From a bacterium (GTDB lineage: Bacteria > Verrucomicrobiota > Verrucomicrobiia > Limisphaerales > J093): 64,000 bases of DNA. The position numbers and the translations under genes are program-made. The notes under the pieces are model-generated. The model had not been told where the DNA came from, did not search any database, and saw nothing but the letters and a program-made list of their open reading frames with translations. Location of the stretch: positions 62,001-126,000 of the forward strand of contig JAJXZJ010000052.1 in the NCBI GenBank assembly GCA_021780105.1, written 5' to 3'. Shown here piece by piece: positions 1-6,244 of the stretch (positions within the stretch are counted from its first letter, which is position 1; each line of letters begins with the position of its first letter).

Positions 1-66
1 TGGTTTCGGTGGAGGGTTTGGTTTCGTTGGAAGCAACAGCTTACCAGCAAGGCCAAACAGACTCAC
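1..66 (-). CDS. Partial N-terminus of a virion-region protein, runs off window edge
   Basis: Downstream of the capsid gene, a GTG codon (66-64, minus) opens a frame that stays open to the window edge. It reads MSLFGLAGKLLLPTKPNPPP, a short hydrophobic stretch followed by proline- and lysine-rich sequence. Only 22 codons are visible, so function cannot be assigned. Its position right after the capsid gene in the same direction suggests another structural or membrane protein of the same operon. The start codon and even the reality of the gene are uncertain. Confidence 0.35.
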   Translation of the reverse strand, partial: MSLFGLAGKLLLPTKPNPPPKP

Positions 67-91
67 GACGACTCTGAAAAAGAGAGCCACT

Positions 92-1153
92 TTACACCCC
101 GGAAACCTGTTGAGTGATAGATTGCGGTATCAACAACTTGTGCGTCGTCATCGTGGTGATGGCCGCCGAGTTCGCAATGTTGCTGCCGGTGATGCGCATC
201 TGCCCGCCGGCGAGCGCGGTGGCGTCCAGGGGCCACGCGGAGCGCAAAGCGAACGTGTCCGTTTGTGTCATGTCCCCAATCAAGTCGTAGTGTAAAACGC
301 CCAGCCCCGCGTTTGTCATGGGAATAGCCGAGAGCTGGTTCATGTGAACACGAGCCATCGGGGTGTCCCGGAACACCGTTCGACCTTGATACTCAATACC
401 ATACGTGTCGTTGTATTCGTCGGCCAACGACCACGTTCGGGAATATCCCGTTGAGCGGCCCGAACCGTAATCAATGAGGGTAAACCCGGTCAACAGACCA
501 CCTTGCGCAATTTGGTCCAGCGTCACATTCCCGGTTCGCCCCCACGGGAGCGATGTCGTGCGCAGTTCGCTTTTCCAGTGCGGAAAAGTGTTTGTCGGGT
601 CAATAACCGACGCATAGTGGAGAGTTAAATCCAACTTAACTCCTGGGTATGTCAAGTCGGCGGTGAACGTGTTCGCGATTGACGCGCGCGTCGGAATGGA
701 AACATTCAACAGTGGAGGAGTCGCGTAGCGCGGAAGCGGTAGCGCACAGTAGGTCTTGTAAGGTTCGCGCAATTCGGGGTGAGCGAACCAGATGTTATGC
801 TGCATATGGAACCACGTCGCTGCTGTCACGCCCTGCCATGAGAGCGAGTCGTAATCGCGGTTGCCAAAAACCTGCCTCTCATATTCGGCGATACCGGCCC
901 CTTCCGCATTAACACAATCCCGCTTGCCATCTGGGCCTTCATCCACGGTGAGCGTGATATTCCGACACAGCCCGAACAGACAGTCGGGAGCGTAGCCAGA
1001 CACGGCGGAACCGTCGGTTTTAACCGACGCGGAAATGGTCATTCCCTCCAGCCAGAAGCCCCGGTTCGGCAACTGTTTGGAAACGACGGTGCCAAAGTTG
1101 TCCTTTTTACCGTCAGACAACGAGAGTGTATCGGTGAACTTTTTGAAAAGCAT
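92..1153 (-). CDS. Putative double-jelly-roll major capsid protein
   Basis: The 353-residue protein has no signal peptide and is rich in beta-prone segments, aromatic residues, Thr and Ser. The N-terminal part reads like the first strands of PRD1/PM2-type capsomers: a polar stretch, then LPNRGFWLEGMTISASV (about residues 28-44), then a FGLCRNITLTV strand near residue 64. Length fits double-jelly-roll capsid proteins (PM2 P2 about 270, PRD1 P3 about 395). The packaging-type ATPase two to three genes upstream and the intervening single-helix proteins support a capsid role. The family assignment rests on pattern reading and synteny, not on a search. A different beta-rich virion protein, such as a spike, is the alternative. 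The start at 1153 has no strong Shine-Dalgarno. Confidence 0.66.
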   Translation of the reverse strand: MLFKKFTDTLSLSDGKKDNFGTVVSKQLPNRGFWLEGMTISASVKTDGSAVSGYAPDCLFGLCRNITLTVDEGPDGKRDCVNAEGAGIAEYERQVFGNRDYDSLSWQGVTAATWFHMQHNIWFAHPELREPYKTYCALPLPRYATPPLLNVSIPTRASIANTFTADLTYPGVKLDLTLHYASVIDPTNTFPHWKSELRTTSLPWGRTGNVTLDQIAQGGLLTGFTLIDYGSGRSTGYSRTWSLADEYNDTYGIEYQGRTVFRDTPMARVHMNQLSAIPMTNAGLGVLHYDLIGDMTQTDTFALRSAWPLDATALAGGQMRITGSNIANSAAITTMTTHKLLIPQSITQQVSGV

Positions 1154-1176
1154 AGTAAAAAGCGTTCAGGTGAAAC

Positions 1177-1275
1177 TCAGGCGGCGGATTTGACGGCGGT
1201 ATACTTGTTGTAAAGCCAAATGCCGATCAGCGTCGCGACGACGGTGGCCAGAAAGGGTGCGATGTATCGGTTCAT
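1177..1275 (-). CDS. Single-transmembrane viral membrane peptide, 32 aa
   Basis: The minus-strand ATG at 1275 opens a 32-codon frame ending in TGA at 1177-1179. The product starts MNRYIAPFLATVVATLIGIW and ends in a charged YNKYTAVKS-type tail. It has one hydrophobic helix of about 17 residues, a short N-terminus and a basic C-terminus. It begins one base beyond the stop of the 40-residue gene upstream and lies 23 bases from the capsid gene start. Small single-helix proteins are typical of the internal membrane of PRD1/PM2-like virions; that role here is inferred from position and topology. Confidence 0.6.
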   Translation of the reverse strand: MNRYIAPFLATVVATLIGIWLYNKYTAVKSAA

Positions 1276-1276
1276 A

Positions 1277-1399
1277 TCAGGGGTTGATGGTGGTATTTTT
1301 CGCTTTCCAGTTCGCGATGGCGTAGTTGAGTCCAATCCCCACGGCAACGGCAACCGACGAAATCAGAACGAGAAGCCAGTTTTGTTTGATCCAGTTCAT
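1277..1399 (-). CDS. Single-transmembrane viral membrane peptide, 40 aa
   Basis: The minus-strand ATG at 1399 opens a 40-codon frame closed by TGA at 1277-1279. The protein begins MNWIKQNWLLVLISSVAVAV and continues GIGLNYAIANWKAKN, giving one clear membrane helix flanked by Trp and Lys residues. It directly precedes the 32-residue membrane peptide with only one base between them, so the two are probably co-translated. It is the first minus-strand gene after a 290-base stretch occupied by an opposite-strand frame. It is likely a minor capsid or internal-membrane protein of the virus; there is no sequence family I can name. Confidence 0.6.
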   Translation of the reverse strand: MNWIKQNWLLVLISSVAVAVGIGLNYAIANWKAKNTTINP

Positions 1400-1422
1400 T
1401 GTTGGAAGTGTATACCGGACGC

Positions 1423-1480
1423 TTTGAGTATCAAACTTCCTTTGTTCCCCATTGTTACTCTGTTATTTACTTGAGTATGA
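1423..1480. promoter_or_regulatory. Palindrome and direct repeats in a divergent intergenic space
   Basis: Between the membrane-peptide gene (minus, start 1399) and the plus-strand frame (start 1500) lies TTTGAGTATCAAA (1423-1435), a perfect TTTGA-N3-TCAAA palindrome. The core TTGAGTAT recurs at 1471-1478. The spacer is more AT-rich than the surrounding genes. This is what operator sites for a divergent promoter would look like, with the plus-strand protein as possible regulator. No convincing -35/-10 pair was assigned. Confidence 0.35.
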
Positions 1481-1499
1481 GTGGTGATACCTTGCAACC

Positions 1500-1769
1500 A
1501 TGTTTTATTTTACATCTGCGCCGCCGAGACCGGCCACGGCCACGGCCACCACCGCCACCACCGCGCCGGAGCGGAAGCGAAACCTGCTTGTCATTGACCT
1601 CGACGATCCGGATGAGGAAAGTTTGCGTAAAGCTCACTCGCTCGCCATGAAGAAGCTCTACGCGCGGAAAGGCGGCCGGCCAAAGAAGATCAAATCCTCT
1701 CCAGTCGCGGACGGTTCCGCACAAACCGGAGCCGGTAGCGTTCCGTCTGCAACCGCTCCGTCTGCCTGA
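1500..1769 (+). CDS. Small basic protein with AT-hook-like motif, opposite strand to the viral operon
   Basis: The frame encodes 89 residues: a low-complexity Ala/Thr/Pro N-terminus, an ordered-looking core RNLLVIDLDDPDEESLRKA, then MKKLYARKGGRPKKIK, whose GRPKK resembles an AT-hook or other minor-groove DNA-binding patch. The composition is more protein-like than the competing minus-strand frame (1467-1814), which is rich in Arg, Cys and Trp. Its last 80 bases run antisense to the 3' end of the ATPase gene. It is the only plus-strand gene in the element and faces away from the capsid module, so a regulatory or nucleoid role is possible. That is inference; the gene itself is only moderately secure. 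Confidence 0.48.
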   Translation: MFYFTSAPPRPATATATTATTAPERKRNLLVIDLDDPDEESLRKAHSLAMKKLYARKGGRPKKIKSSPVADGSAQTGAGSVPSATAPSA

Positions 1770-2418
1770 GCAGACAGGTTTTTTCAGGGAGGGAAGCAAC
1801 CTCCCCTTTTTCAAGCCCGCACGTTTCTAAGAAGTCGAGCGCGCGGGTTTCGTTTTGCCGGAACGCGAGGACTTGGTTGAACTGTGAACGAAGCCGATTG
1901 TTCACGAAGTTTGATGCTTGAGCGATGCACAACAGCGAAGTCCGGTAACAGCGTCCGGTTTCGGCTAAACAAGACAACCCGCGTGGAATGTCGCTCCGCG
2001 CGGCTCCCACGAAGTTTTGAAGCTCGTCAATCACGACGAGTTTTTCGCGCGCCGGTCCTTGCGAACACGCGAGAAAAGTCCAGTCCGTGAAAAACTGAAA
2101 CGCGACATCCAGCGAACCTGTGAAGCAGACGTGCGGGTTAAAAACTACCGTTGCACCGCGCTCGAAAGCCGCTTGCATCTGCCCCGGCCGGGAAAGCTGT
2201 CGCGCGGGAAGCCGGAGCGAAAACTCCCCTTTATGGTCGAATACGAATAGTTGACCGGCCGGGTTTTTTTTCTTCCATGAAGTGATCAAGCAAAGGGCGG
2301 CCGATGTTTTTCCGCTCCCGCTGGGTCCGGTGATGAGTGTTCGACGCGTCTCCGCTCGATAGTCTGGTTTCATAAAGTTGCCGGCCGGAGGAATATCACT
2401 CCGGCCGGCGGCGCGCAT
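1690..2418 (-). CDS. Genome-packaging ATPase (FtsK/HerA P-loop superfamily)
   Basis: The 242-residue protein carries a clear P-loop GPSGSGKTSA (Walker A, residues 31-40), the segment VFDHKGEFS (59-67) often seen in HerA/FtsK/VirD4 ATPases, and Walker B LVVIDE (117-122) followed by LQNF. A CIAQASN segment near residue 154 could be the sensor region with its glutamine. The size and minimal single-domain layout match the packaging ATPases of PRD1 (P9) and PM2-like viruses, which pump DNA into a preformed capsid. It lies upstream of the membrane peptides and capsid gene. An internal ATG (codon 16, at 2373) is an alternative start; neither start has a good ribosome-binding site. Confidence 0.8.
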   Translation of the reverse strand: MRAAGRSDIPPAGNFMKPDYRAETRRTLITGPSGSGKTSAALCLITSWKKKNPAGQLFVFDHKGEFSLRLPARQLSRPGQMQAAFERGATVVFNPHVCFTGSLDVAFQFFTDWTFLACSQGPAREKLVVIDELQNFVGAARSDIPRGLSCLAETGRCYRTSLLCIAQASNFVNNRLRSQFNQVLAFRQNETRALDFLETCGLEKGEVASLPEKTCLLRQTERLQTERYRLRFVRNRPRLERI

Positions 2419-2451
2419 GAAGATGTCGGCATTATCCGGCCGACGCGGAGA

Positions 2452-3192
2452 TTATGTTTTCGCGGACGGGGCGGCCGGTTTCTGCAGGCAAGAAAGCTCG
2501 ATCAACTGGCCGGCGACTGCGGTCGCTGACGGAGCATCTACCACTTCGGCAACCAGCTTTGACACCTGGGCGAGAACTCCTTTTTCGGCTTGGTGTTGGA
2601 TAAGCCAGCTTTTGAAGCGTTCACCGGCGAGTTGTCCTTGCTGGGTTTCGATGAGCTTCCGCGCAACTTCCACACCCTGCGCGAGCGCGGTTGAAACTTT
2701 ATTTGCTTGTTTGCTGCGGAGTGTTCCCCACAGCCCAAAAACAGCCCCAATTCCAACGGAAATCACGTCTCCCCACACCGGCACCGCACTCGCGACGTTC
2801 TGTGCGAGTTGAACCGACGGGGCAGGGGAGTAGGTATAAAGCTCGTTGGTGGTGACGACTGGAACGCTCTGGGTGGTGCCGCTCACCACCGGAACGCTCT
2901 GGGTGGTGAGCGTTACCACCGGAACAGTGGAAGTGAACACGCCGGATGGTGAGGACACCACCACCGGCGCGAAGTTCGTCGTCGTGGTGACGACTGGCGC
3001 GAAGTTCGTCGTCGTGGTGACGACTGGCGCGAAGTTCGTCGTCGTGGTCCGGTTCGTTTCGATGGTGAACAGCTTTTGTTCCAACCTCGTGGGGCCGGGA
3101 CTTCCGCAGCCGGAAAGTAAAAAAAGCCCGCACACCGCCGCAAGCGCGGCGGCGGCGGGCATCGGTGTGGTGGGGCGCGAAAGTTTCATCAC
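2452..3192 (-). CDS. Repeat-containing lipoprotein with C-terminal membrane/helical domain
   Basis: This 246-residue protein starts with a lipoprotein signal peptide ending in the lipobox FLLSGC (Cys near residue 29). Residues about 48-115 are Thr/Val repeats: three copies of TTTTNFAPVV and two of TQSVPVV, encoded by 30-bp DNA repeats. A hydrophobic glycine-containing segment VWGDVISVGIGAVFGLWGTL follows near residues 138-158. A charged helical tail ends the protein. The start ATG overlaps the stop of the upstream gene. A lipid-anchored protein in a tailless-virus operon could be a receptor-binding, membrane-remodelling, superinfection-exclusion or lysis protein; the sequence does not decide. 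Confidence 0.7.
   Translation of the reverse strand: MMKLSRPTTPMPAAAALAAVCGLFLLSGCGSPGPTRLEQKLFTIETNRTTTTNFAPVVTTTTNFAPVVTTTTNFAPVVVSSPSGVFTSTVPVVTLTTQSVPVVSGTTQSVPVVTTNELYTYSPAPSVQLAQNVASAVPVWGDVISVGIGAVFGLWGTLRSKQANKVSTALAQGVEVARKLIETQQGQLAGERFKSWLIQHQAEKGVLAQVSKLVAEVVDAPSATAVAGQLIELSCLQKPAAPSAKT
2861..3048. repeat. In-frame 30-bp tandem repeats inside the lipoprotein gene
   Basis: Two related repeat blocks with the same 30-bp period (10 codons) are visible. GGAACGCTCTGGGTGGTG begins at 2861 and 2891, with a diverged third start at 2921. GAAGTTCGTCGTCGTGGTGA begins at 2971, 3001 and 3031, the last copy truncated. The period keeps the reading frame, so copy-number change would alter protein length without disrupting it. 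Confidence 0.85.
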
Positions 3193-3578
3193 ACGGCCGG
3201 GACAGGGGCCGGGGCGGCCGGGGCGGCCGGGGCGGCGGTAACTATAGGCGTAACCAACGCAGCGGCGGCGTCGGAAAGGCGTTTCGCGGAGTGTTTTTTT
3301 CCGGGGACGAACTTGCCACCGGCGGCGGCAATGAGCGGCTCCATGGCGGTTTGCAGCTCCACGGTCGGGGTCACATCCCCGGAAGCAATCGGGTCGCTTG
3401 CGTGTTCCGCGGGAACTTGGAGGCCGGACGACAGTTCGTGAACGTTCAGGAAGTTTCCATCATTGGTGACGCCGGAAACGATGCAGAGTCGGGGCACCGC
3501 GTAAACATCACCCGGCCGGGCAATCTTTACAATGTCCCCGACTGCGGGAGCGTTTCCTGACGGATAGTTCTTGCTCAT
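3189..3578 (-). CDS. Hypothetical protein of the viral operon, 129 aa
   Basis: The protein has a compact, probably beta-rich N-terminal half (GNAPAVGDIVKIARPGDVYA, then LCIVSGVTNDGNFLNVHEL) and an Ala/Pro-rich flexible tail (PAAPAAPAPVPAV). There is no signal peptide or membrane helix. Its stop overlaps the ATG of the following lipoprotein gene and its start follows the previous stop by 9 bases, so it belongs to the operon. I do not recognise a family. A small virion or assembly protein is plausible from context only. Confidence 0.62.
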   Translation of the reverse strand: MSKNYPSGNAPAVGDIVKIARPGDVYAVPRLCIVSGVTNDGNFLNVHELSSGLQVPAEHASDPIASGDVTPTVELQTAMEPLIAAAGGKFVPGKKHSAKRLSDAAAALVTPIVTAAPAAPAAPAPVPAV

Positions 3579-3587
3579 ACTTTGTTT

Positions 3588-4091
3588 TTACTCTGTTTCG
3601 TTGCGTTTTTGGTGTTTTTCGGCCGCAACCTGCCGGACTTCGGCGGCGGCGGCTAAAAGGGAAGGGGCGCGGGTCGCGTAAAAAATTACGAGCGCGCCGA
3701 GCGGCGTGGTGGCCCACTGTTGTCCGTATTCGACAATCACGTCGCCCCAATGCTGCCCGGCTTGCTGGATGTCGGCTTCATCGGGTGATATGCTGGCACA
3801 GATTTCGCGCGCTTCGTCCTTCGACAGCCCGGCGCGGCGGGCGAAGATGGAGAGGCCCCCGGCGATTCCGCGCTCGATTGAGCGAGCCACCGTGACACCA
3901 GCCTTGACAGCGAAAGCTCGATCAAGGGAGGAACCACGGACAGCGCCACCTTGCGGCGCGCTGCCTTCTTCCACCGACACAGCCAGCCCGTGGGCTTGGA
4001 GCACGGGGCCGAAGTCCACAGGGCCTTCCGACCGGCTTTCGACAGCGGTTTCGACAGGAGCTTGAGCACGAAAAGCGGCGTGTTCACTCAT
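3588..4091 (-). CDS. Hypothetical protein of the viral operon, 167 aa, one possible membrane segment
   Basis: The first 80 residues are polar and low in structure-forming residues. A central helical part contains LSKDEAREICASISPDEADI, and near residues 127-148 lies the moderately hydrophobic TTPLGALVIFYATRAPSLLA, possibly a membrane-associated helix. The C-terminus is charged (AAEKHQKRNETE). The gene overlaps the upstream 73-residue gene by four bases (ATGA) and is followed by the 129-residue gene after 9 bases. No family was recognised; a membrane-linked assembly protein would fit the setting. Confidence 0.6.
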   Translation of the reverse strand: MSEHAAFRAQAPVETAVESRSEGPVDFGPVLQAHGLAVSVEEGSAPQGGAVRGSSLDRAFAVKAGVTVARSIERGIAGGLSIFARRAGLSKDEAREICASISPDEADIQQAGQHWGDVIVEYGQQWATTPLGALVIFYATRAPSLLAAAAEVRQVAAEKHQKRNETE

Positions 4092-4309
4092 GGGCAGGCG
4101 GGCCGGATGTCGAAGGTCTGGTGAATCGCAACGCGGAAGGAACTTTCCAAAGCGTCTGCAGCGGCGGTGGAAATCGGGATGCGTTTTCCCGCGTAGCGGG
4201 CGCGGCGGCCGTCGGTGGGTGGCACCTTGTAGGGCTTCTCTCCGGTGAGTCGTTGTTTCGCAAGAGTTGTCGGTCGCGGCATAGTTTTCGCGTCCGGTCT
4301 AAGCTCCAT
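4088..4309 (-). CDS. Small basic hypothetical protein, 73 aa
   Basis: The ATG at 4309 is preceded by AAGGGGAC, one of the better ribosome-binding sites in this operon. The product is basic and Pro/Arg-rich (PTDGRRARYAGKRIPIS) and ends FDIRPACP. Its stop overlaps the next ATG as ATGA. A longer minus-strand frame over the same bases (4084-4515) has poor, Arg/Pro/Ser-scrambled composition and was not chosen. The basic charge could indicate nucleic-acid contact. No family was recognised. Confidence 0.52.
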   Translation of the reverse strand: MELRPDAKTMPRPTTLAKQRLTGEKPYKVPPTDGRRARYAGKRIPISTAAADALESSFRVAIHQTFDIRPACP

Positions 4310-4370
4310 GTCCCCTTGCTGTGCGACGCAAACCTTAGCAGCTTCCGCTTCGCGGTCAAGCGGTTTTCGC

Positions 4371-5195
4371 TCAATCGGACAACGTTTCTCCCTTCCAAAA
4401 GGTTTCCAGCACGGCTGCCCGGCTCGCTACCGGCTTCGATCTCGACAAGCGGGCTTCCAACTTGCAAACACAGTAGGCGACCTTCCCAAGGTCCACTTGG
4501 CAGCGTTTTCCCCATTTCCCAGCGTCGTTCGTGAACTCGTCGCCCAGCAGCCGTCGAAGTCTCCCCATGTATCGCTTTCCAAGTCCGGCGTCCTGACTCG
4601 AACCTTTAGAAGCAGCTTGCATTTCCTCGTTTCCTTCTGTCGAGCGAAGCGAGCGCGATTGTTCCTTTCCTTCTTTCCCGCCGCGAAGCGGCCCGCTGTG
4701 CAAAGAATCCCGCTTCGCGGAAAGATTTGGAGAGAGAACCCTTTTCCTGATAAGGGATGGACTACATTTTAGCCCAGAATCCGGGCTAGTTTTTAGCCCA
4801 GAATCCGGGCTAGTTTTTAGCCCGGAAGCGTCAAATAAAAGAGTCAACCGGGAGAGGTAAAACCACCCCCGGCGGAAAGCCCACTCCTGTTGAAAGGAAA
4901 TCAAACCGGAAGCTTGGAGTTGAAGCCGGTAGGCCCGCTGGGTCATGCGTGCCCGTCCGGTTTCGCGCTCGATGTCGCGCTCGGAGTGCTCGAAAGAGTC
5001 GCCCCCGGAGCGGCGGGCACGCTCCGCGTAGTGCTTCAAGAGACAGAACGCGCCGGAGGAGATGGCTCGCGCGGAGAGCGCCGCCTCCGCGCGGAGCCAG
5101 AACGCACGGAGGCGGCGGTGTTGATCAATAATTTCTGCCGTTTGCACAGTGGGATCTTTCCTTTTCAGACCGTGCAAACGCGTGACTTTGCTCAC
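4371..5195 (-). CDS. Putative replication initiator with N-terminal winged helix and internal origin
   Basis: The 274-residue protein begins at a GTG (5195). Residues about 45-115 (AISSGAFCLLKHYAERARR through ERETGRARMTQRAYRLQLQA) look like a winged helix-turn-helix of the kind found in plasmid and phage initiators. Residues about 123-146 are an eight-residue repeat SGLKTSPD encoded by 24-bp palindromic iterons. A Lys/Arg-rich linker and a C-terminal helical domain follow. The layout (DNA-binding domain, iterons inside the gene, C-terminal domain) parallels lambda O. The start overlaps the previous gene by 71 bases; a GTG at 5147 preceded by AAAGGAAAGA is an attractive alternative. A transcription regulator is the other possibility. 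Confidence 0.58.
   Translation of the reverse strand: MSKVTRLHGLKRKDPTVQTAEIIDQHRRLRAFWLRAEAALSARAISSGAFCLLKHYAERARRSGGDSFEHSERDIERETGRARMTQRAYRLQLQASGLISFQQEWAFRRGWFYLSRLTLLFDASGLKTSPDSGLKTSPDSGLKCSPSLIRKRVLSPNLSAKRDSLHSGPLRGGKEGKEQSRSLRSTEGNEEMQAASKGSSQDAGLGKRYMGRLRRLLGDEFTNDAGKWGKRCQVDLGKVAYCVCKLEARLSRSKPVASRAAVLETFWKGETLSD
4767..4823. repeat. Iteron-like 24-bp palindromic repeats, candidate replication origin
   Basis: The unit TTTTAGCCCAGAATCCGGG plus CTAG starts at 4767 and again at 4791, and a third, partial unit (TTTTAGCCC) starts at 4815; the period is exactly 24 bp. Each full copy contains the inverted half-sites TAGCCC and GGGCTA seven bases apart (4770-4788 and 4794-4812). The repeats sit in the middle of the putative replication gene and keep frame. 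Tandem palindromic repeats inside an initiator gene are the classic form of a phage origin. Confidence 0.6.
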
Positions 5196-5325
5196 GGTAA
5201 ACGACCGCCGCCAGCAAACAGTCGGCAGCGGCTTCGCGGAAACCCTCCCCAGCGCGGTTGCACACCTTCCATCCGACGGCGGCTTCGCGCATTTTTTTGC
5301 GGAGATGTTTGCAGGAACTTTTCAT
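5125..5325 (-). CDS. Small hypothetical protein, 66 aa
   Basis: The ATG at 5325 overlaps the preceding stop as ATGA, so translation is probably coupled. The product begins MKSSCKHLRKKMREAAVGW, is helical and basic, and continues through FREAAADCLLAAVVYREQS. It could be a small DNA-binding or regulatory protein, but no family is evident. Its 3' end overlaps the start region of the replication gene in another frame; this tells against either the last part of this gene or the earliest start of the next. Confidence 0.5.
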   Translation of the reverse strand: MKSSCKHLRKKMREAAVGWKVCNRAGEGFREAAADCLLAAVVYREQSHAFARSEKERSHCANGRNY

Positions 5326-5522
5326 AGCTCGTAGCAGGTTGGCTTCTGGCAAATGGCAAGCGGAAGCCACGGTTGCTCCATTTCCTCCAACTGCCGCAGT
5401 GCGCGGCGGCGGCGGCGGATGACGTTCGCGGCACCGGGGCCGGCTCCACACGGAGAGTCGAGGAAGGCATCAAACTCGCGGAGGGATTCCAGTAGTTGTC
5501 CTTTTGTTCTTGGCTTTTTCAT
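5322..5522 (-). CDS. Small hypothetical protein, 66 aa, well-supported start
   Basis: The start at 5522 is preceded by GGAGG at a spacing of 8, the clearest Shine-Dalgarno in the viral region, and the ATG overlaps the upstream stop (ATGA). The protein is MKKPRTKGQLLESLREFDAF, then a Gly/Pro turn, then an Arg-rich helix (IRRRRRALRQLEEMEQ) and a Cys-containing tail. It is probably a small helical nucleic-acid-associated protein of the early region. No named family. Confidence 0.62.
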   Translation of the reverse strand: MKKPRTKGQLLESLREFDAFLDSPCGAGPGAANVIRRRRRALRQLEEMEQPWLPLAICQKPTCYEL

Positions 5523-6037
5523 TGATGTTCCTCCGTTCTTGGAAGGTTCCCCGTTAAGAACGCAAAGATGAGGTCCAGACGGCGGTTGACTCCGTCGCGG
5601 AACTCCTTGTCCGGGGTCACGAACGACGGCGCGCGGTTGTCGCGGCGAGTCAGTTCGACGGCGGCAACAAAGTCGGCAAGCGTGAGCGCGTAGAGCAGCG
5701 CCCGGTCGCTGCGAATGCACTCGTCAGTGTCAACGAAACGGTTGGCGATGGCAGCGTCAGCCACGGCTAGCCAGTCGTCGAGCCGGGCGATGGCGCCGGG
5801 CAACTGAACGGCCGGGCAGGTGGTGACGTGACACATGATTTCGCGCGCCTGGCGCTTCAGGAGCGCGGCGAATTGATCTTGCTTTCGCGGTGAGAAGCGT
5901 TCGGGATGCTGAACGTGTTCGTTCAATATTCGGACTTCCATGTCCTGAAGATATTTCGGCCGCGAATCCTGCCGGGGCAGGTCAAGCCGCATTAACTTCT
6001 GTGTAACTGCTATGCTTTGCACTTTTTTGTTTCCCAT
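5519..6037 (-). CDS. First gene of the leftward viral operon, hypothetical, 172 aa
   Basis: From ATG 6037 the protein begins MGNKKVQSIAVTQKLMRLDL and is mostly alpha-helical and charged, with MEVRILNEHVQHPERFSPRK and a C-terminal VNRRLDLIFAFLTGNL. No membrane segment or recognised motif. The same frame extends to a GTG at 6097, which would put a perfect palindrome and a run of nine T (plus strand) inside the gene, so the downstream ATG is preferred; neither start has a clear ribosome-binding site. Being first in the operon, it may be an early regulatory or replication accessory protein. Confidence 0.6.
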   Translation of the reverse strand: MGNKKVQSIAVTQKLMRLDLPRQDSRPKYLQDMEVRILNEHVQHPERFSPRKQDQFAALLKRQAREIMCHVTTCPAVQLPGAIARLDDWLAVADAAIANRFVDTDECIRSDRALLYALTLADFVAAVELTRRDNRAPSFVTPDKEFRDGVNRRLDLIFAFLTGNLPRTEEHQ

Positions 6038-6065
6038 TTGTTCAACGCTGTTTTTTTTTGACCGG

Positions 6066-6077
6066 CGGGCTAGCCCG
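6066..6077. promoter_or_regulatory. Perfect palindrome sharing the iteron half-site
   Basis: CGGGCTAGCCCG is a perfect 12-bp palindrome just upstream of the preferred start of the first viral gene. Its halves, GGGCTA and TAGCCC, are the same hexamers that form the inverted arms of the iterons at 4767-4823, here joined without the seven-base spacer. This would fit autoregulation of the operon by the iteron-binding initiator. Confidence 0.4.
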
Positions 6078-6097
6078 TGGTTGCCGAACATCGGCAC

Positions 6098-6244
6098 AGA
6101 GCCAACCCGCCGGCCGGCACAGCGAAGACCCGGAGCTACCGGGCACGCGTATTACGCACAATGTTTGTTATATTTAATAAAGTTTCGTCGCGGTTTGCAC
6201 CCCTCGATGGCTGATCGCTTGAATCGTCAACCCGGTTCTGAACC
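6098..6244. other. Junction between viral region and chromosome, AT-rich
   Basis: This non-coding stretch contains an AT-rich island (about 6161-6184, TTGTTATATTTAATAAAG), a plausible site for divergent promoters of the leftward viral operon and the rightward glycosylase gene. A short inverted repeat CCCGG-AGCTA-CCGGG lies at 6129-6143. No tRNA, integrase or obvious attachment repeat is visible; the partner repeat would be outside the window. Confidence 0.35.

Follow-up and report, generated by a model that had tools for sequence, protein, structure and literature searches.

Earlier surveys have reported tailless prophages from Verrucomicrobia (PMC9502842) and from the PVC group (PMC5894146). 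The Verrucomicrobia prophages belong to Vinavirales clade A, and their integration mechanism was reported as unclear (PMC9502842); the bacterial subgroup of the 'STIV group' includes PVC-labelled contigs (Yutin et al. 2018, PMC5894146). Temperate tailless phages integrated at dif are known in Vibrio (PMC9966536, PMC11630473), and for the temperate Vibrio phage fNo16 (NO16) of the proposed Asemoviridae (Vinavirales), XerCD integration at dif has been proposed (PMC9966536). Here we describe a provirus at the left edge of a 64,000-nucleotide window, the whole stretch of DNA that was analysed (G000:C8:62001-126000), from a draft genome of 4.55 Mb and 78 contigs. A first-pass annotation of the window's letters had placed the host in Verrucomicrobiota, correctly (order Limisphaerales), and had proposed an integrated tailless double-jelly-roll virus, which was supported by a fold search and by the grouping of the packaging ATPase. 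The element is very probably an apparently intact temperate provirus of the PRD1/adenovirus type, small, icosahedral, tailless and probably membrane-containing, with a double-jelly-roll capsid and an FtsK/HerA-type ATPase, integrated through Xer at dif.

The dif site is used by the host to separate its chromosomes. Reading of a further 12 kb to the left of the window showed a provirus of 10,027 bp (G000:C8:58128-68155, window about -3,872 to 6,155). Its two ends were formed by copies of CGCACAATGTTTGTT, a direct repeat of 15 bp, at C8:58128 and C8:68155 (window 6155), and a genome-wide search found 2 copies in the whole 4.55 Mb and 0 of the reversed control. The left attachment site is the repeat copy at G000:C8:58128-58142, outside the window. 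At the right attachment site (6152..6178, plus strand), where the element ends, the sequence is TTACGCACAATGTTTGTTATATTTAAT, and its core at 6155-6169 is the stretch that occurs only twice in the genome. The right repeat copy followed by TTATATTTAAT makes up TTACGCACAATGTTTGTTATATTTAAT and is laid out like a dif site, with a 6-bp centre between a XerC and a XerD arm; judged by this sequence, it is an almost perfect dif. The first-pass annotation had caught the right two thirds of the provirus but missed its whole extent, which runs left to about -3,872, and had drawn its right limit at 6097, at the last listed gene and just short of the true end at about 6,155. A search of 97 genomes of the order for the dif 27-mer, with <=3 mismatches allowed against the reconstructed host site, found it in 23, as a single copy in each, with 0 matches for a reversed control pattern. 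In the related genome G006, which belongs to the same family, lepB-lepB-dif-nth-glycosyltransferase were contiguous and without the element, with dif ~20 bp after the second lepB and ~140 bp before nth. The same genes (lepB, nth and others) flanked the element in the same order in the window's genome, and the contiguous arrangement around dif in G006 represents the empty site. In several Limisphaerales relatives, two tandem signal peptidase I genes (adjoining lepA in the window's genome) preceded dif (L003:5682-8117, loci L022, L052 and L054), a conserved dif neighbourhood. Left of lepA (L003:31-3400, window about -11970 to -8600) lay type I restriction-modification specificity and modification genes with a Fic/Doc-like gene between them.

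No recombinase was found among the element's proteins with Pfam, and a six-frame search with PF00589 gave no match inside C8:58128-68169, compared to five clear and one borderline tyrosine recombinases elsewhere in the genome. The first-pass annotation had suggested extending the contig leftward for an integrase and an attachment site; attachment sites were found, but no integrase, and the site used was dif. The element thus shared two traits of integrative elements exploiting Xer (IMEX): exact integration at dif with direct dif-like repeats, and the lack of a recombinase of its own. Since an insertion at dif without a recombinase gene indicates the host's Xer recombinases, these most likely integrate the element, although the dependence on these enzymes is an inference. 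A circular double-stranded DNA genome of about 10.0 kb, bearing a dif-like site whose XerC arm is good and whose XerD arm is degenerate, would enter the host, and the host Xer enzymes would recombine this site with the chromosomal dif between lepB and nth. In the predicted site of the element itself, the XerC arm was intact and the XerD arm degenerate (TTGTTCCTGTC). Of the two sites produced by integration, the right one would be a full dif and the left one a hybrid, and because a full dif is kept, chromosome dimers would still be resolvable. For the steps after integration, gene content together with PRD1/PM2 biology suggests that the integrated provirus stays silent, and that in a productive cycle the genome would be excised, its initiator and the 24-bp repeats would start replication, the capsid protein would assemble with membrane proteins, and the ATPase would pump the genome into preformed shells.

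The genome-packaging ATPase (242 aa, 1690..2418, minus strand) carried the Walker A (GPSGSGKT) and Walker B (KLVVIDE) motifs that the first-pass annotation had read. It was matched at 6e-12 by the packaging-ATPase family phrog_2666, which also matched 8/8 homologues, and by a full-length profile match (5.7e-6, PDB profiles) to the STIV packaging ATPase B204, the STIV-like ATPase that characterizes the STIV group (Belfryvirales). Profile comparison with hhalign ranked P23-77 first (7e-15), followed by NO16 (2e-14), SH1 (1e-11), PM2 (5e-11) and PRD1 (9e-5), compared to 2e-3 for the host's own FtsK as a control. A tblastn search with the ATPase of a related element (G053) matched the packaging ATPases of SH1, HHIV-2, PH1 and HCIV-1. 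On these matches the protein is a viral packaging ATPase of the FtsK/HerA type found in Bamfordvirae, and not a conjugation protein. A grouping with conjugation proteins, together with conjugative genes leftward, had been named at the outset as an outcome that would speak against a virus; the ATPase grouped with viral packaging ATPases, and no conjugation genes were present in the element read to both ends.

The candidate major capsid protein (MCP; 353 aa, 92..1153, minus strand), a predicted double jelly roll, was assessed through its homologues and through AlphaFold2 models built from three sequences each, one of the window protein (pLDDT 45, pTM 0.48) and one of the homologue in L040 (pLDDT 41, pTM 0.46). 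With the low-confidence window model, Foldseek returned PRD1 P3 first (9e-7), then PM2 P2 (2.5e-6) and the iridovirus and PBCV-1 capsids, and with the low-confidence L040 model it returned PBCV-1 Vp54 and the STIV MCP (4.9e-6). In a library of viral structures (BFVD), the matches were tectivirus MCPs, including those of Gluconobacter phage GC1 (6e-8) and Bacillus phage Wip1 (4e-7). Across two low-confidence queries (pLDDT 45 and 41) and two libraries, the matches were almost exclusively double-jelly-roll capsids; single-jelly-roll capsids ranked at 7e-3 or worse (PDB search, L040 model). As thousands of other beta-rich folds were available to the search, this ranking is informative. A fold lacking two stacked jelly rolls would have counted against the original proposal, and both low-confidence models instead point to double-jelly-roll capsids; the fold of the candidate is thus supported, but not proven. 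An improbable alternative is a single-jelly-roll virus of the P23-77/SH1 type (Helvetiavirae), in which the ATPase would lie beside a large capsid protein by chance. The proximity of the ATPase profile to P23-77, the sequence-level matches to SH1, HHIV-2, PH1 and HCIV-1, and phrog_2666 in 8/8 elements all fit such a virus, but the ATPase was almost as close to that of the double-jelly-roll phage NO16. Moreover, viruses of the P23-77/SH1 type have two small capsid proteins (173-291 aa), each encoded separately, whereas a single protein of 350-372 aa was conserved in 8/8 elements here with no second capsid-sized protein conserved; VP16, VP17, VP4 and VP7 showed no similarity to the candidate; and Foldseek placed double-jelly-roll capsids first, with 0 Helvetiavirae capsids in the top 50.

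Several observations weigh against a double-jelly-roll provirus. The 353-aa protein had no sequence match in Pfam, PHROGs, PDB, INPHARED phages or PLSDB plasmids, and its MCP profile matched no known capsid by sequence. Both models were poor, with TM-scores of about 0.3, because only three usable sequences were available for each, and the Foldseek matches could partly reflect any beta-rich two-domain layout. Similarity to known proteins revealed no lysin, penton or spike protein in the element. The best Pfam match of the ATPase was TrwB_AAD_bind, at 22.4 bits just above the cut-off and over 49 residues around Walker A. This last match would suit a mobile element, conjugative or mobilisable, in which the ATPase is a coupling protein and the 353-aa protein a cellular double-jelly-roll enzyme (DUF2961/GH172), and a GH172 enzyme did appear among the Foldseek matches (7v1v, E 3e-5). 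Cellular enzymes of this kind were found to have no virus genes nearby (PMC8812541), however, and they ranked below viral capsids in Foldseek; the candidate had no Pfam DUF2961 match, neither it nor the ATPase matched a plasmid, the element held no relaxase or conjugation gene, and viral packaging ATPases matched full length where the host FtsK matched weakly. The gene content of the whole element largely refutes a conjugative origin, which is scarcely credible.

The locus was also compared to individual groups. Like fNo16, which has a circular genome of about 10.6 kb, the element has one double-jelly-roll capsid gene, by prediction, adjoining a P9-type ATPase gene (ATPase hhalign 2e-14), but the fNo16 capsid has 265 aa and no detectable sequence similarity, its host is Vibrio, and no other gene was found in common. 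With the Verrucomicrobia prophages of Vinavirales clade A, the element shares host phylum, provirus state, an MCP-ATPase pair with a small membrane open reading frame (ORF) between, and no known lysin; those prophages, compared by description only, were placed by their PM2-like capsids, whereas the window capsid profile matched neither PM2 P2 (hhalign E 0.07 over 35 columns) nor the NO16 MCP (E 0.25), and so does not fall among the PM2-type capsids of Vinavirales. The STIV group offers a STIV-like ATPase and, in STIV, a capsid of similar length (345 aa), and PIN/antitoxin genes as well as tyrosine integrases are found in part of the members both of its bacterial subgroup and of the present family; the candidate had no significant hhalign or other sequence match to the STIV capsid, and the PVC members, compared by description only, may or may not be the same group. 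Thermus phage P23-77 and haloarchaeal SH1 have the closest packaging ATPases by sequence but two single-jelly-roll capsid proteins, where one double is predicted here. PRD1 (Tectiviridae), the top Foldseek match, has the same order of ATPase, two tiny ORFs (ORFi/XX) and capsid gene, but its genome is linear, protein-primed and carries a DNA polymerase, and its ATPase is more distant. The FLiP MCP showed no similarity to the candidate, and the element has an ATPase, which separates it from the FLiP group (Finnlakeviridae).

Protein searches followed by profile searches found capsid homologues of 350-372 aa in 7 further genomes of the order, so that the family recurs in 8 genomes, at 19-23% identity to the window protein. 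The homologue-bearing contigs include WRPG01000001.1 (Limisphaerales bacterium) and JACQFQ010000030.1 (Verrucomicrobia bacterium). An ATPase was present in 8/8 elements and a 156-aa membrane protein in six or seven of 8; in seven further genomes of the order, MCP and ATPase recur side by side, which shows that this region is more than chance. Outside the order, no capsid homologue was found in the class and phylum samples bar one match (G742, E 2.9e-4, inside an 853-aa frame), which we treated as chance. IMG/VR searches with capsid and ATPase returned nothing, though these needed conserved peptide stretches and were of limited sensitivity, and the eight-capsid alignment was too divergent for pattern searches; the window's own proteins had no match among INPHARED phages and PLSDB plasmids. 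The elements differed in their ends. Those of G024 and G053 lie between direct repeats, 46 bp of tRNA-Met and 23 bp of tRNA-Leu, respectively, and both carry a tyrosine recombinase; in G308 a tyrosine recombinase adjoins tRNA-Val. The G295 element ended at two dif-like sites (core GTCGCACAATAATAG) 10.9 kb apart, and that of G062 abutted a perfect dif beside lepB, its second boundary being searched for and not found. A 14.3-kb contig of G012 looks circular, in that one initiator gene is split across both its ends, although no terminal overlap was found; its one dif-like site combines the same intact XerC arm with a degenerate XerD arm, which is the make-up predicted for attP. A second partial capsid-family gene stood at a contig edge in the same genome (G012:C202, L036:1-800), and G012 therefore holds at least two related elements. 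In G062, tRNA-Met lay directly upstream of the ATPase gene (L014:8912-8985), either element-borne or another insertion mark. Two related elements (L011:8303-8988, L013:10507-11147) had PIN-domain toxin-like genes with small antitoxin-like partners that either separate the capsid and ATPase genes or flank them, possible addiction modules or defence cargo. Replication genes varied among the relatives (DUF5906 primase-helicase, DnaB-like helicase, initiator; L034:3319-4734, L011:9516-11000), similar to the replication-module swapping reported in Vinavirales.

The genes listed by the first-pass annotation were all present in place on the minus strand, in an operon that continues about 3.9 kb past the left window edge. 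Between ATPase and MCP lie two single-helix membrane peptides, identified by translation and hydropathy: MNRYIAPFLATVVATLIGIWLYNKYTAVKSAA (1177..1275, minus) and a 40-aa peptide (1277..1399, minus) comparable to PM2 gene VII. Upstream of the ATPase follow, all on the minus strand, a 246-aa lipoprotein with a GTG start, a lipobox (LLSGC) and tandem TTTTNFAPVV repeats (2452..3192), a 129-aa protein (3189..3578), a 167-aa protein with one membrane helix predicted by hydropathy (3588..4091), a 73-aa protein of no recognised family known from its translation (4088..4309) and a replication-initiator-like protein of 274 aa (4371..5195). The lipoprotein and the 129-aa protein had no family match in Pfam or PHROGs. 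The initiator-like protein matched phrog_270 ('replication initiation protein') weakly (E 0.022) and had a homologue with 36% identity on the circular-looking contig of G012. The iterons of the first-pass annotation correspond to three 24-bp direct repeats (4759..4830) inside the initiator gene, where they could also be a coding repeat (SGLKTSPD). Two 66-aa ORFs follow on the minus strand, one with an ATGA overlap with the preceding gene (5125..5325) and one with a Shine-Dalgarno-like GGAGG upstream (5322..5522), and then the att-adjacent gene of 140-192 aa (5519..6097, minus), with homologues beside the attachment site in G295 and, for its 192-aa form, adjoining the chromosomal dif of G012. 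Overlaps of the ATGA/GTGA type join genes at 5519-5522, 5322-5325, 4088-4091 and 3189-3192. An 89-aa ORF without Pfam match on the plus strand (1500..1769) is possibly a small regulator, though uncertain.

At the window edge, the start of a 65-aa membrane protein gene (1..90, minus) was captured, and left of the window (-1 to -3,872) were genes for an 89-aa transmembrane (TM) protein, a 210-aa protein, the conserved 156-aa TM protein (C-terminal helix), a 157-aa protein, a 61-aa TM protein and a ~436-aa protein with pentapeptide-like repeats. Beyond these, a 149-aa secreted protein is encoded on the plus strand. For a P1-type spike as in Vinavirales, the scan covered family libraries, in which the left-end 451-aa protein gave a pentapeptide-repeat match alone. 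The 210-aa and 157-aa proteins were considered as counterparts of a similarly placed protein in three relatives, and no link was found. A defective or domesticated provirus that has lost particle production would be in keeping with the small size, the unrecognised lysin and the missing integrase, and Verrucomicrobia Vinavirales prophages were suspected of being degenerate (PMC9502842). Against such a loss, which we consider unlikely but worth keeping in view, MCP and ATPase were open and full length in 8/8 elements with intact Walker motifs, gene order was compact, both attachment sites were intact, and a related element occurred on a circular-looking contig.

An apparently intact provirus of this known kind probably represents a new lineage at family level, its capsid being unconnected by sequence to the tested groups, with a possible overlap with the PVC members of earlier surveys, which were compared by description only. 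The first-pass annotation's claim of novelty has to be softened, since tailless prophages had been reported from the host group before (PMC9502842, PMC5894146). The novelty lies in a lineage that is so far limited to Limisphaerales, is precisely delimited at dif with an empty site as control, and has members of both the Xer and the integrase type. We lean slightly towards a double-jelly-roll lineage of family or order level confined to Limisphaerales, in which capsid similarity to all known groups has been lost and members switch between the host's Xer at dif and their own tyrosine recombinase at tRNA genes. Tailless phages escape most virus finders, and the locus supplies a dif sequence for Limisphaerales, while eight related genomes can serve as seeds in searches for the lineage. 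In Vibrio, tailless prophages at dif regularly carry an integrase gene, which leaves the use of host recombinases unresolved there (PMC11630473); with the present tailless provirus, which lies at dif between exactly mapped ends, has no integrase and is matched by an empty site in a relative, the Xer route can be put to a direct test.

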